This document shows, piece by piece, positions 31,863-49,798 of a DNA stretch of 49,800 nucleotides. The notes under the pieces are model-generated. The model saw only the letters and a program-made list of their open reading frames with translations. It was not told where the DNA came from and searched no databases. The position numbers and the translations under genes were made by a program. The DNA comes from Bacteroidota bacterium (GTDB lineage Bacteria > Bacteroidota > Bacteroidia > Cytophagales > UBA9547): positions 1 to 49,800 of the forward strand of contig RDZG01000082.1 of the NCBI GenBank assembly GCA_004293915.1, read 5' to 3'. Positions within the stretch are counted from its first letter, which is position 1, and each line of letters opens with the position of its first letter.

Positions 31863-32095
31863 AAAACTTAAGTTGTATCAAGTAAAACTTAAGTTGTATC
31901 GAGTAAAACTTAAGTTGTATCAAGTAAAACTTAAGTTGTATCGAGTAAAACTTAAGTTGTATCAAGTAAAACTTAAGTTGTATCAAGTAAAACTTAAGTT
32001 ACATCGACTAAAACTTAAGTTGTATCAAGTAAAACTTAAGTTGTATCAAGTAAAACTTAAGTTGTATCGAGTAAAACTTAAGTTTTATCAATTAA
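31863..32095. repeat. Tandem array of eleven 21-bp units, each with the palindrome AACTTAAGTT
   Basis: The perfect 10-bp palindrome AACTTAAGTT occurs at 31865 and then every 21 bases to 32075, eleven times without exception. The linkers (mostly GTATCAAGTAA or GTATCGAGTAA) vary more than the palindromes. The spacing is two DNA helical turns, so all palindromes face the same side of the helix. It lies upstream of the minus-strand gene 31404-31754 and just beyond the end of the transglutaminase gene. Because 21 is a multiple of three, one frame stays open (repeating KLYQVKL), which I regard as a by-product. Confidence 0.9.
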
Positions 32096-32130
32096 AAAGA
32101 CCTACTAAGTTTTAAAAACTTAGTAGGTCT
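32094..32130 (-). terminator. Intrinsic terminator of the transglutaminase gene
   Basis: Perfect 15-base arms at 32098-32112 and 32116-32130 (outer part AGACCTACTAAG with CTTAGTAGGTCT) and a three-base loop. On the minus strand a short T run follows (A at 32094-32098). The transglutaminase gene stops at 32160. The stem core resembles that of the terminator at 31348. Confidence 0.75.
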
Positions 32131-35465: not shown

Positions 35466-35580
35466 AAGGCTCGAAAATTGAGGTAGGTTTGAAAATTTTT
35501 ACATCTTTTTCAAATCTAACCGCATAATTTCGATTTATCAATACAATTTTTATTTTAATTATAAATTACTTGTCCTTACC

Positions 35581-35976
35581 TTTCTTAACTTCAAACTTTT
35601 CGAGGGTTTTCAACCGCTGGAAAAACCCTCAAAAAGTTTTTTTTACTTTTTGAGCGGTTAGAATATACTAATCCAAACCTTTCTTAACTTCAAACTTTTC
35701 GAGGGTTTTCAACCGCTGGGAAAACCCTCAAAAAGTTTTTTTTACTTTTTGAGCGGTTGGAATATACTAATCCAAACCTTTCTTAACTTCAAACTTTTCG
35801 AGGTTTTTTAACTGCTGGAAAAACCCTCAAAAAGTTTTTTTTACTTTTTGAGCGGTTAGAATATACAAGCCCAAACCTTTCTTAACTTCAAACTTTTCGA
35901 GGGTTTTCAACAGCTGGAAAAACCCTCAAAAAGTTTTTTTTACTTTTTGAGCGGTTAGAATATACTAATCCAAAAC
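35581..35976. repeat. Four tandem 99-bp repeats with alternative hairpins
   Basis: Units start at 35581, 35680, 35779 and 35878 (99 bases each), beginning TTTCTTAACTTC and ending near ATCCAAACC. In unit 1, AAACTTTT plus GAGGGTTTT (35593-35610) pair with AAAACCCTC plus AAAAGTTT (35622-35639), a stem of about 17 pairs with one mismatch. CTCAAAAAGT (35628-35637) can instead pair with ACTTTTTGAG (35645-35654), and AACCGC (35612-35617) with GCGGTT (35654-35659). The two folds exclude each other. The array fills most of the 654-base gap between the divergent transglutaminase and SDR genes; the remaining 143 bases to 36119 show nothing clear. Confidence 0.9.
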
Positions 35977-36119
35977 CTTTCAAAAAATCTAGGGTTCTTA
36001 TCTGATATAAAAACTTTTAAGAATATAAGAAATTACAAGATTTAACACTTAATTTGTTTAATAATACAAAAAAACAGATTAAATAAATCGATAAATTAAA
36101 AGCATAATCTTTTTTAAAA

Positions 36120-41944: not shown

Positions 41945-41952
41945 AACACAAT

Positions 41953-42432
41953 TTATTTTTTTTTCATAGCTGAATTTTTGTTTTGCATTAGCAACTTTAG
42001 TTCAGCTATATTTGTTTCTTGAAGTGCCAACTGCTTTTTTAGGTGATTTATCAACTGTTGTTGTTCTTTTACGGCTTCAATCAATAAAACCGAAATTCTT
42101 TCATATTCGATAGACTTAAAACCTTGCAAATCTGTATCTACCAAAAGCGGTTCGATTTCTTCTACCTCTTGAGCCACAAGCCCAATTTCCATTCCGTTAC
42201 GGTGGTGAAATTGCGGATAACTTTTTGTTTTCCATTCGTATTCAACGCCTCTAAGTTTCATAATAGTTGCCAAAGCGCCATGAATGCCTATAATGTTTTT
42301 TTTGAGTCTTATATCAGCAATATTTCTAGTTACGGGTTCGTGCAAACGAATGTTTACATCCGATGTTGTAGTTTGCTGGCACATCGATTTTATGGACAGA
42401 ATAATACATAAAAAGAGTATGTTTTTTTTCAT
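41953..42432 (-). CDS. Secreted S74 peptidase/intramolecular chaperone domain protein
   Basis: A 159-residue protein with a signal peptide (MKKNILFLCIILSIKSMC) and then a peptidase S74 domain, the self-cleaving chaperone found at the end of phage tail fibres. The pattern DIRLKKNIIGI, LRGVEYEW, IGLVAQEVEEIEPLLV, and SIEYERISVLLIEAVKEQQQ is characteristic; in the usual SDxRLK start the serine/aspartate is replaced by IADIRLK, so self-cleavage may be lost. A C-terminal coiled coil follows. In Bacteroidota such domains often end large surface fibres, but here the domain is almost alone. The fibre-like gene at 42815 is divergent to it and lacks its own S74 domain. Confidence 0.85.
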   Translation of the reverse strand: MKKNILFLCIILSIKSMCQQTTTSDVNIRLHEPVTRNIADIRLKKNIIGIHGALATIMKLRGVEYEWKTKSYPQFHHRNGMEIGLVAQEVEEIEPLLVDTDLQGFKSIEYERISVLLIEAVKEQQQLINHLKKQLALQETNIAELKLLMQNKNSAMKKK

Positions 42433-42745
42433 TGTACTAAGTTTTTTTCATTTAACGATAAAACAACAAATAAAATACGGAAAAGCGTTTAAATTTTTTA
42501 TAAAATTATTGAATTTCTACTGTTTCTATTTAGAAAAAATATTTTTTCGATTTATACAACACAAAAAAACACACAAATTCTCTTTATGTGGATAGATTTA
42601 TAGAACAAAGCCTTTATTTTACAAAGCTTGTTTATTATCTGTGAAAAAAAATAAATTTATACTCGATGTTAGTTATGATTTTGATTTGACAATATAATGT
42701 ATCTACTTTTTACTATAAATATTTCAAGAATATTACGTGTTTTGT
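42433..42745. other. Intergenic region, nothing recognisable
   Basis: About 310 very AT-rich bases between the divergent S74 and fibre-like genes. I see no RNA gene, stable hairpin or ORF with support. The promoter for the fibre-like gene lies directly after it. Confidence 0.5.
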
Positions 42746-42776
42746 TTTGAAGTTTGAAAATTCTATATTAAACTTG
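42746..42776 (+). promoter_or_regulatory. Promoter of the fibre-like surface gene
   Basis: TTTG at 42746-42749, 19 bases, then TAAACTTG at 42769-42776, one base off the consensus. The start of transcription would be near 42781, about 34 bases before the ATG at 42815. Confidence 0.5.
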
Positions 42777-42814
42777 CATCAGAATTTTTAAAATTAACTA
42801 AAAATAGTGTACTG

Positions 42815-45163
42815 ATGAAAGTAACTTTAAAATTTACCCCCCCCCATTTTATACTTATAAGTATATTTAGTATTTGTTTTGCAATGCAAACCAATGCTCA
42901 AACCATCCAACTTGCCACTTGGGATTTTGCAAATGCAAACACTACGCCAACCTTGGCATCGGGCATCGGTTCTGCAACCATCGCCACAAGTGGAAATATA
43001 CAAGTTTCTAGTTCTTTTACAAACTCCTTTTCGGTAACAAACTTATCGGCTACTACTTTAGCCCAAGCCAAAAATGGAAACGGTACAATTCCCGCATACT
43101 ATATTAGTGTTACGATTTCGCCAAATCCAAACTTTGCCATCGATATTAGCAGTGTAGCTATTCAAGGATTTTCGCAAAATCGCAACCGCACGTTTAATTT
43201 ATCATATATCGATGCCCAATCGAATTTGATAAATGTGCAAAACAGAACCATCGCTACACCAACCCAAGCCCAAACATTTACGGTAAGTTCGCTCACGGGT
43301 ATACAAACACCTATCGAATTGCGGTTTTATATCTTTAGCAACCCTGCCGACCTATACGAAGCAGCAGGTTTTGGCGAAGCTGCAGGATTAGATTTAGTAA
43401 TAAACGGAAAAATAACCAATACCACCACCAACCCCATTTTGCCTGGCATGTGGTCGCTGCAAGGCAATACCGTTGCTGGCACACAGTTTTTTGGAAGTGT
43501 AAACAACGAAGCCCTAAAAATATATACCAATAATACCGAAAAAGTACGTATCGATTCCGATGGCAACGTTGGCATTGGCACCACAGCACCCACCCAAAAA
43601 CTATCGGTGGCGGGCAATATCAACCTTACTGGCACAGGCACAGGTTTGATTTTTGATGATGGCACATTCGCAAATAGTTGGCAGCCAGTGTTAGCAAATT
43701 CGGCAGCAATCTCTATACTCAATACCTCACTAAGTGGATTAACCAATACAGTAAATGCAAATTTCACAACACTTCAAACTAGCATTTTAGGGATTGGACA
43801 AGCCATTGACATACAACAAACTACGAACCAAATACTGAGTTCTTCTATTGTTGGAGTTTCTGCAAACTTAGCTAATACACAAACAACCGTTGCAAACTTG
43901 CAAACGGCTTTAGCCAATTCTACAAATAGTTTAAACAATGGTATCACATTTTCGGGAGCAAAATTTGATATTTATACCCCTGTGCAAGGACAATATAATG
44001 GTTACAAACCCATCATGAGCATGAGCCAATATGGTGAAATCAATTTTAACAGTTCGCCATACCTAAACGACAATGCCATGTATTTTGGAAATACGGGCAA
44101 TTTTAACAATGGCATACGCAAAGCAAATGATTTTGGAGGCGTTGGAGGCTATTCGGGACCAGTAGTGTTTGGCGAAAACGGAGGTGCGTTGGGCAGCAGC
44201 ACCGCAAATAGCAATTGGACAACCACTGGCACAAAACTAGCCCTAAGTTGGGATGCCAACCAAACCGTGAAAATTCACAAAGCCTTGCAATTTGCAGATG
44301 GCACAGTACAAACTACGGCTGGAAGCAACTGGGAAATGACTAATAATTATCTAACCTACCCACAAAATGTAAATGTGCAAGGCACATTGAAACTAGGCAC
44401 AAATTCATTGTATTTAGGTGGTGTTTCGGGTGGAATACCTGGATCTACCAACGAAATTTACACCGACAATGGAGCGTTGGAGATACAAAACCAAACAAGT
44501 GGGTTTCAGTTAGTGAGCATAAAAGAAGGGGGACTAAAAGTTGAAGGCGATATAGAAATACTAGGCGATAATCCAAAAATAAAAATCGGAAGCTTGGTAA
44601 TGCAAGATTTTAGCAGAACCGAGATAACAACTGGCACAACCTCAAATGGCGGACAAACAATAAATTTTGGCGTTGTCAACCATTTACCTGAGTCTTTCAT
44701 TTTTGGAAATATTGTTTATATAGAAGGAGTTGATGGGGGAAGATTTAAATCAATATACTCAAGGGATATGGTTAGTTTTTCTCAGTATCCTAGTAATTCA
44801 TTAAGCTATAATCTTGGCTCATGTATTCGATTTAATGCTGATGAAGCTCAATTAGAGTTTATTACCGCACCTATAAGCATTCAAAATACAAATGGGATTA
44901 CAAAAGCAGAACTCTTAGCACATCGTTCACTGGTTATCAAAACACCCGAAGGGCTAAATCAACCTAGTTATATTGGTATCAATAAAACCACACCAACACA
45001 TGCATTGGATGTAGTAGGAAATATAAAAATTAACACTAATGGCAATGGAATTATTTTTCCTGATGGTACAAAGATAAGTTCATTGAACGAAATTAATCCA
45101 TGGGCAATCAATGGAAATTCAATTTCTTATGGTGGAAATGTAAAAAGAACAAAGTGCAGGTAA
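42815..45163 (+). CDS. Fibre-like surface protein, N-terminal part (frameshifted before its end)
   Basis: A 782-residue secreted protein. The signal peptide (about 1-29, ending TNAQ) is interrupted by a C9 tract (42837-42845) that encodes the Thr-Pro-Pro-His stretch near residues 8-11. Residues about 30-200 form a beta-rich domain. Later there are tail-fibre-like blocks: KVRIDSDGNVGIGTTAPTQKLSVAGN (about 241-266) and a second copy around INKTTPTHALDVVGNIKI, each followed by GIIFPDGT or GLIFDDGT. Coiled-coil segments lie around 300-370. The frame ends in RTKCR after an A5 tract at 45142-45146. Removing one A joins it smoothly to the C-terminal frame that runs to 45845. Base composition is richer in C than the neighbours. 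Confidence 0.85.
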   Translation: MKVTLKFTPPHFILISIFSICFAMQTNAQTIQLATWDFANANTTPTLASGIGSATIATSGNIQVSSSFTNSFSVTNLSATTLAQAKNGNGTIPAYYISVTISPNPNFAIDISSVAIQGFSQNRNRTFNLSYIDAQSNLINVQNRTIATPTQAQTFTVSSLTGIQTPIELRFYIFSNPADLYEAAGFGEAAGLDLVINGKITNTTTNPILPGMWSLQGNTVAGTQFFGSVNNEALKIYTNNTEKVRIDSDGNVGIGTTAPTQKLSVAGNINLTGTGTGLIFDDGTFANSWQPVLANSAAISILNTSLSGLTNTVNANFTTLQTSILGIGQAIDIQQTTNQILSSSIVGVSANLANTQTTVANLQTALANSTNSLNNGITFSGAKFDIYTPVQGQYNGYKPIMSMSQYGEINFNSSPYLNDNAMYFGNTGNFNNGIRKANDFGGVGGYSGPVVFGENGGALGSSTANSNWTTTGTKLALSWDANQTVKIHKALQFADGTVQTTAGSNWEMTNNYLTYPQNVNVQGTLKLGTNSLYLGGVSGGIPGSTNEIYTDNGALEIQNQTSGFQLVSIKEGGLKVEGDIEILGDNPKIKIGSLVMQDFSRTEITTGTTSNGGQTINFGVVNHLPESFIFGNIVYIEGVDGGRFKSIYSRDMVSFSQYPSNSLSYNLGSCIRFNADEAQLEFITAPISIQNTNGITKAELLAHRSLVIKTPEGLNQPSYIGINKTTPTHALDVVGNIKINTNGNGIIFPDGTKISSLNEINPWAINGNSISYGGNVKRTKCR
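42837..42845 (+). repeat. C9 homopolymer inside the signal-peptide region
   Basis: Nine consecutive C bases in an AT-rich genome, within codons 8-11 of the fibre-like gene. At nine the gene is in frame; eight or ten would cut the protein off. This is the typical form of a slipped-strand phase-variation switch. Confidence 0.7.
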
Positions 45164-45194: not shown

Positions 45195-45845
45195 TTGTGT
45201 ATAGTTGGCGCTGGGACAACAGGTAGTAATAGAAGAATAAGATTCTTTAATGAAGGTGGGGCAAAATTTGATGGTCAGATAGAGGTAAACAGCAATGTTT
45301 GGATTAAAGACCAATATGCCTTGCAATTTGGACCTCGTGTAGGTTTGCCCGATGGTAATGCAGCAAGTATAAAACTTGGTACTAGTGGCACCGATGAATA
45401 TTTGAATATATTTGGAGGCACTGGCAATGGCAAAGCATATCCTGCACGAAAAGTACAAATCTTTACCGAAGGTGGTGGGTTAATACAAGGAAAAATGAAA
45501 ATTCAAGACCCTTGGAGTCCTATTGGTGCGGGACATGCCGATGCACTTTTGGATGTAAATGGAAATATATACAGCCGAAAAAATGTTGTAACACAGCTTA
45601 ATTGGGCTGATGACGAATTTGATGCCCAAAGCCCAAGCTTGGAGCAAGAACAAGCCACTGCCACCAAAGAAAAACACCTCATTGGCGTACCAAAAGAATG
45701 CGAACTAAACGAAACAGGATTAGACCTAGGCAAAATGCAAGAGATACAAATGCGTAAAATAGAGCAACTATACAAACACCTTTGGAAAATGAACCAACGC
45801 ATGGAACAACTTGAAAAAGAAAATGAATTGCTTAGAAATAGGTAG
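45195..45845 (+). pseudogene. Fibre-like surface protein, C-terminal part in shifted frame
   Basis: The 216-residue continuation of the gene starting at 42815. The frame is open from about 45147 (EQSAGKIGYGTFDAGAL), so the TTG at 45195 is not a true start. It contains another fibre-type block (NSNVWIKDQYALQFGPRVGLPDG), then LLDVNGNIYSRKN, and ends in a coiled coil (QEIQMRKIEQLYKHLWKM and MEQLEKENELLRNR), which would trimerise the fibre. No S74 domain is present. Whether the break is a real mutation, a switch or a sequencing error cannot be told here. Confidence 0.8.
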
Positions 45846-45932
45846 AATGGAGAATTGAGAATGGAGAATTGAGAATGGAGAATTGAGAATGGTAGGATGG
45901 AGAATGGAGAATGGAGAATGGAGAATGGTAGA
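45846..45932. repeat. GGAGAAT heptamer repeats after the fibre-like gene
   Basis: Directly after the stop codon come about six alternating GGAGAAT/TGAGAAT heptamers, a GGTAGGAT break, and four perfect GGAGAAT heptamers. The same heptamer array follows the surface gene that ends at 49719. Confidence 0.85.
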
Positions 45933-49732: not shown

Positions 49733-49798
49733 TAGAATGGAGAATGGAGAATGGAGAATGGAGAATGGAGAATGTTGCTTACGCAAGTTTAATTCTCC
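49733..49798. repeat. GGAGAAT heptamer array with inverted copy
   Basis: Five perfect GGAGAAT heptamers at 49739-49773, followed by TTGC-TTAC-GCAA and then ATTCTCC at 49792-49798, the reverse complement of the heptamer. Together they form a palindromic element at the window edge, right after the T9SS gene. Confidence 0.8.

Follow-up and report, generated by a model that had tools for sequence, protein, structure and literature searches.

A poly-C tract in the leader of a fibre-like protein from Bacteroidota is a candidate phase-variation switch

What does a run of nine C do among the first codons of a gene for a secreted fibre-like protein? Such a run lies in the window, by which we mean the whole stretch of 49,800 nucleotides that was analysed; the features of the locus are collected in the table. 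The first-pass annotation had proposed that a change of one base in this run would abolish the protein, and that the run is a candidate switch of a surface fibre. Re-read from the sequence, the run is exactly nine C and does lie in the first codons. The gene opens with ATG AAA GTA ACT TTA AAA TTT ACC CCC CCC CAT TTT ATA CTT ATA AGT; the tract is a simple repeat whose unit is not a multiple of three, placed in the 5' coding region. With nine C, or a length differing from it by three, the start codon would be in frame with both the signal peptide and the mature protein. With eight C the frame runs into TAA at 42858-42860 after 14 residues, and with ten C into TAG at 42868-42870 after 18, so that a gain or loss of one base does end the protein, as had been claimed, and nothing would be exported.

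Table 1. Features of the tract locus, in positions of the window.
Feature	Position	Strand	Remarks
C9 tract, candidate slippage switch	42837-42845	+	codons 8-11; starts 22 nt after ATG
ORF, secreted fibre-like repeat protein, 782 codons	42815..45163	+	in frame with ATG 42815 at the assembled C9; paralogues and orthologues found
Signal-peptide-coding leader MKVTLKFTPPHFILISIFSICFAMQTNAQ	42815..42901	+	by eye; hydropathy peak 2.74
Conserved stretch ATTTTATACTTATAAGTATATTTAG 3' of the tract	42846..42870	+	holds the stops of both shifted frames
Frame-loss point	45133..45163	+	44 nt of paralogue C96 missing between 45142 and 45143; ORF ends at 45163
Remaining C-terminal part, 216 codons, in another frame	45195..45845	+	coiled-coil-like end by eye; alignment to C96

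No other C or G run of the window is as long as the tract: the next C run has four bases and the longest G run five. From the base composition of the window, runs of nine or more C or G are expected 0.0044 times per window and 0.55 times per genome; the genome contains two. The rarity originally ascribed to the run thus stands within the window, whereas genome-wide a C9 is only mildly surprising. Could the run be a coding feature only, specifying Thr-Pro-Pro-His without any switching? The tract is placed in the n-region of the signal peptide (by eye), where prolines need not do harm, and it is in frame. However, ACC and CCC are minority codons in the ORFs of the window (138 of 675 Thr codons and 52 of 425 Pro codons, respectively), and at this CCC usage a need of the protein does not explain the C run.

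The window is contig C99 of a 3.85-Mb draft genome in 156 contigs. This genome has eight C or G runs of at least 8 nt, versus 3.3 expected. Four of the eight, read in context, are leader tracts of secreted-protein genes, with C on the coding strand in every case. Besides the in-frame window tract, they are a C8 on contig C93 before a member of the same protein family (16 nt after the nearest upstream ATG), a C9 on C143 before a small protein with a type IX sorting domain (16 nt after ATG), and a C8 on C21 before another fibre-like protein (16 nt after ATG), all three out of frame. Both C9 runs of the genome are therefore leader tracts, 16 or 22 nt after the ATG. The four non-leader runs are close in number to the chance expectation, and three of them are internal to long frames whose coding strand carries the G. 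The fourth, L005 (G000:C72:65056), is a C8 located 31 nt after a possible GTG start and in frame; its ORF is glycosyltransferase-like (Pfam match below cut-off) and may be another switch. For four of eight runs to fall within the opening 30 nt of genes, on the right strand, the binomial probability is 8e-7; counting C99 and C93 once (three of seven runs) raises it to 4e-5, in both cases for a 30-nt zone chosen post hoc. At a threshold of 7 nt the genome has 14 runs, fewer than the 20 expected, so that only long runs at gene starts are in excess.

The length of the tract varies while its flanks are conserved, both between paralogues and between congeners. The C93 copy has C8 versus C9 in the window and is 92.7% identical to it over 823 nt downstream, with one gap; it carries a second indel beyond the tract, after which only 40 codons are open. 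In the C21 gene, an internal ATG pair 3' of the tract could serve as a start, bypassing the tract. On C96, (AC)7, another slip-prone repeat, is found at the corresponding place before ACTTATAAG. The congener G001 has two leader tracts, both out of frame: a C7 before the orthologous protein (L042/L074) and a C10 before L103, which has a different mature part. Both continue into CATTTTCTACTTATAAGTATATTTA, one mismatch from the window, and the conserved stretch 3' of the tract is almost letter for letter common to the window, C93 and these two tracts. In L043, another paralogue in G001, the mature N-terminus is nearly unchanged but follows a different signal peptide, and there is no C or G run of 7. 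As L043 and C96 are without a C tract despite their related mature parts, it is the leader, not the mature protein, that goes with the tract. Six leader tracts were found in the genus, ranging from C7 to C10. The motif WTTAC6 occurs at nine places in three genomes of the genus, five of which are known leader tracts and four plain C6 away from gene starts; the sixth leader tract, that of L103, is missed by the motif because its preceding base differs.

G007 belongs to another genus of the same family. Its loci L086-L089, L109 and L118 encode a recurrent signal peptide, MKKQFLKTAFSTLIFSALWGGVNAQ and variants, with a poly-G run close to its end; the runs measure 7, 8, 9, 11, at least 9 and at least 12 nt. 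In two cases the contig stops within the G run. The frame is off in the copies with G7 and G8, and the one with G11 already has a stop earlier on. For family f20, we read 38 of the 40 tracts of nine or more C or G, leaving out two at G374:C53, in six genomes picked because they matched the order-level pattern, a non-random sample. Ten f20 tracts sit in lipoprotein leaders (lipobox by eye) and begin 15-22 nt after an ATG; one of the ten is in frame. The second copy in G237 has C9 versus C10 in G288. The flanks of this pair are identical over 121 of 121 nt upstream, the length for which similarity was reported, and 94.9% identical without gaps over 312 nt downstream, where the alignment ends; the sole length difference in the aligned stretch is the tract. 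In another genome, the C11 at G004:C210 (L117) lies at a contig end next to a sequence resembling a Nextera adapter, and is likely contamination; the tracts G004:C255 and G004:C339 of that genome were left out of the reading.

The mature parts of some f20 lipoproteins are of interest in themselves. L217, L221 and L245 share a similar FFEKEPDW-like N-terminal part behind their C-tract leaders and differ in their C-terminal parts, with SprT-like C-terminal matches, below cut-off, in L221 and L245. L231 is without the FFEKEPDW-like motif and matches DUF6973 (E 9e-20). All four resemble polymorphic, phase-variable toxins that probably act between bacteria.

At the class level, 26 of 30 loci were parsed. 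Nine of the 26 (including the window, as L261) show a long frame with a hydrophobic leader, either as assembled or after a change of one base; by eye, one class-level locus, L250, is similar to repeat proteins of the SprB type. Eight new class-level genes and 16 others make up a set of 24 leader-tract genes. Only four tracts are in frame (the window, L217, L257 and L273), and the other 20 are out of frame by one. Eight of these need a shift of +1 and 11 a shift of -1, while L227 depends on the choice of start codon. Downstream of the tract, frames of 184 or more codons, up to 839, stay open in 15 of the 20, some of them truncated where the retrieved sequence ends. The remaining five are short (40 codons in L083, 90 and 90 in L240, 116 in L227 and 123 in L252), suggesting that part of the leader-tract genes may be decaying. 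The in-frame share is below one third both in the set of 16 (two in frame) and in the set of 24, with P of 0.06 each for these non-independent samples. Neutral phase drift alone predicts such a low share poorly; perhaps the OFF state is favoured.

These counts bear on what the tracts are for. If the run only encoded part of the n-region, 20 of 24 genes with the same feature would not be out of frame, nor would lengths differ between near-identical copies, and we regard a purely coding role as improbable. A second possibility is that the lengths reflect errors in the consensus, or a real drift without consequence in genes that are decaying. Homopolymers are error-prone, the genome is a draft in many contigs, and in several copies there are additional frame breaks or the frames are short; yet errors would not place the tracts of exported proteins at 15-22 nt from the ATG, most out-of-frame copies remain open over the long frames described above, and in the G237/G288 pair nothing but the tract differs in length within the alignment. 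This explanation is unlikely, if somewhat less so than the coding one. Alternatively, programmed translational or transcriptional slippage could yield some protein at any length, which would account for copies that are mostly out of frame and still open downstream. A programmed shift keeps one direction, though, and here the direction is mixed; moreover, polymerase slippage is less documented on C runs than on A or T runs. We judge programmed slippage to be about as improbable as a coding role. In sum, a coding run is expected in frame nearly everywhere, a programmed shift is one-directional, and dead genes collect stops, whereas a reversible change of length fits all three facts.

We therefore return to a switch. 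Tracts kept at the same position, with differing lengths, conserved flanks and mostly out-of-frame yet open genes, support phase variation as the first-pass annotation had suggested it, and the C9 tract is a candidate for such a switch. From these comparisons we consider it likely that the tract acts as a translational phase-variation switch, that is, a contingency locus. The homopolymer would gain or lose C during replication by slipped-strand mispairing, this slippage would be frequent and reversible in living cells, and selection would act on the surface exposure of the protein. With one assembly per species, switching is what we infer from the comparison. We count against it the frame losses in the window copy and in C96, the second indel in C93, the five short out-of-frame copies, the possible bypass of the tract in C21, the low in-frame share and the raw pattern counts taken up below. 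Nine C is also short for a fast switch.

The breadth of the phenomenon has to be judged from tracts read in context, to which our evidence is limited. We had considered raw counts of an ATG followed by a C tract as proof of wide spread and rejected them, as they barely exceed their reversed controls, which were counted by hand from tables. At the order level, ATGAA followed by 3-27 nt and C8 was found in 149 of 390 genomes and the reversed pattern in about 139 of 390. At the class level, ATGA followed by 11-18 nt and C9 was found in 41 of 295 genomes and its reverse in 33 of 295. Being so close to their controls, the raw counts say little on generality. The conserved post-tract stretch may itself match the reversed pattern in G000 and G001.

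Expression might instead be switched by inversion of promoter DNA, with the tract incidental. Invertible elements are a well-known route to phase variation in Bacteroides, as described in the excerpted text of a review (PMC11868660). However, no inverted-repeat pair tightly flanks the promoter region at 42433-42814. Between 41900 and 43000, the only inverted repeats with arms of at least 12 nt pair 41950-41969 with 42639-42658, and none of these pairs flanks the promoter tightly; they are A/T-rich, and their low end reaches into the neighbouring gene. An inversion switch at this locus is extremely unlikely. That divergent neighbour, at 41953-42432, carries a Peptidase_S74 (endosialidase chaperone) domain, which is typical of fibre C-termini.

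What would the slippage switch turn on and off? Profile searches gave no Pfam or NCBIfam match for the window protein, and PHROGs one weak match (E 0.0019) to a family of unknown function. The AlphaFold model, built from a six-row alignment, has a mean pLDDT of 36 and is unusable. The clues to a surface location are the leader, seen by eye and in the hydropathy, and a sibling tract gene, L084, with a T9SS sorting domain; the window protein itself is without a known domain. Of the secreted fibre proposed in the first pass, secretion accords with the leader and a surface fibre is plausible, although neither the profile searches nor the structure prediction lends the fibre support. The 44-nt gap relative to C96 shifts the last part of the gene out of frame, so that a protein made in the ON phase would miss its C-terminal part. 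The window leader would then be in the ON phase while its product is truncated, unless the gap is an assembly fault. The paralogue C96 is frame-shifted as well, at another place.

The window contains further repeats. Arrays of the heptamer AGAATGG stand at 45844-45928 (12 copies) and 49734-49774 (5.9 copies), directly after two secreted-protein ORFs. A 99-bp tandem repeat, present four times with copies 94% alike, lies at 35578-35981 before a gene that is short-chain-dehydrogenase-like by eye, and a 21-bp tandem repeat fills 31863-32097 with 11 copies.

The tracts outside the genus suggest that the leader may be spread across Bacteroidia. A bolder reading, which we offer tentatively and hold to be possible but rather doubtful, is that Bacteroidia use a portable phase-variable leader, with an n-region C tract about 15-22 nt after the ATG, on unrelated exported proteins. 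It would be carried by fibres, T9SS cargo, SprB-like repeat proteins and lipoproteins with toxin-like C-terminal domains, and sometimes be swapped between paralogues, so that a single slippage mechanism would reshuffle a large part of the exported surface and the genes would usually be OFF. If this is true, a homopolymer switch in the signal peptides of environmental Cytophagales and their relatives would be a second, easily recognised route to phase variation in Bacteroidota, and some apparent pseudogenes in annotated genomes would be ON/OFF genes. It would also provide a search rule for any genome or read set: an ATG, about 5-7 codons, C7 or more, and a signal peptide.

How does this compare with known systems? 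The slippage mechanism is already known from Neisseria opa and Helicobacter pylori sabA; the lineage and the re-used leader appear to be new. Among the matches listed for homopolymer or slippage phase variation in Bacteroidota, which comprise titles and the starts of abstracts, with subscription journals mostly outside, there is no report of a poly-C leader, which leaves its absence from the literature unproven. In the excerpted text of a 2025 review, Bacteroides is named mainly for phase variation by inversion (PMC11868660). Those invertible elements belong to the same class of switch and act on the same kind of target, the surface, but they work through a recombinase and inverted repeats, of which no flanking pair is present here. 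Orsi et al. report that A and T tracts are enriched at the 5' ends of genes and that C and G runs are mostly under-represented, although 11 of the 99 genomes have an excess of poly(C) of 7-8 (PMC2831843). The same article describes a 5' poly(A) near the start codon of Listeria inlA, where a frameshift leaves a very short peptide (PMC2831843). The window gene is alike in having a homopolymer near the start codon and a very short peptide upon frameshift, and differs in that the homopolymer is C.

The adhesin gene sabA of H. pylori has CT repeats in its 5' coding region, and in-frame and out-of-frame alleles are reported to coexist (PMC2715451). A slippage repeat in the 5' coding region is common to both systems, but sabA has a dinucleotide repeat plus a promoter T tract, and the present gene a C tract. 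In Neisseria opa, with about 11 copies per genome, CTCTT repeats lie in the leader-coding sequence, their number restores or breaks the frame, and switching is reported at about 1e-3 per cell per generation (PMC3745409). Here, too, a repeat is found in the leader-peptide-coding sequence of several gene copies. In contrast to opa, the repeat is a C homopolymer rather than a CTCTT pentamer, the phylum is different, and similar leaders precede unrelated mature proteins, whereas the opa copies are one protein family. By analogy, the proposed switch of the window gene works like opa without being opa.
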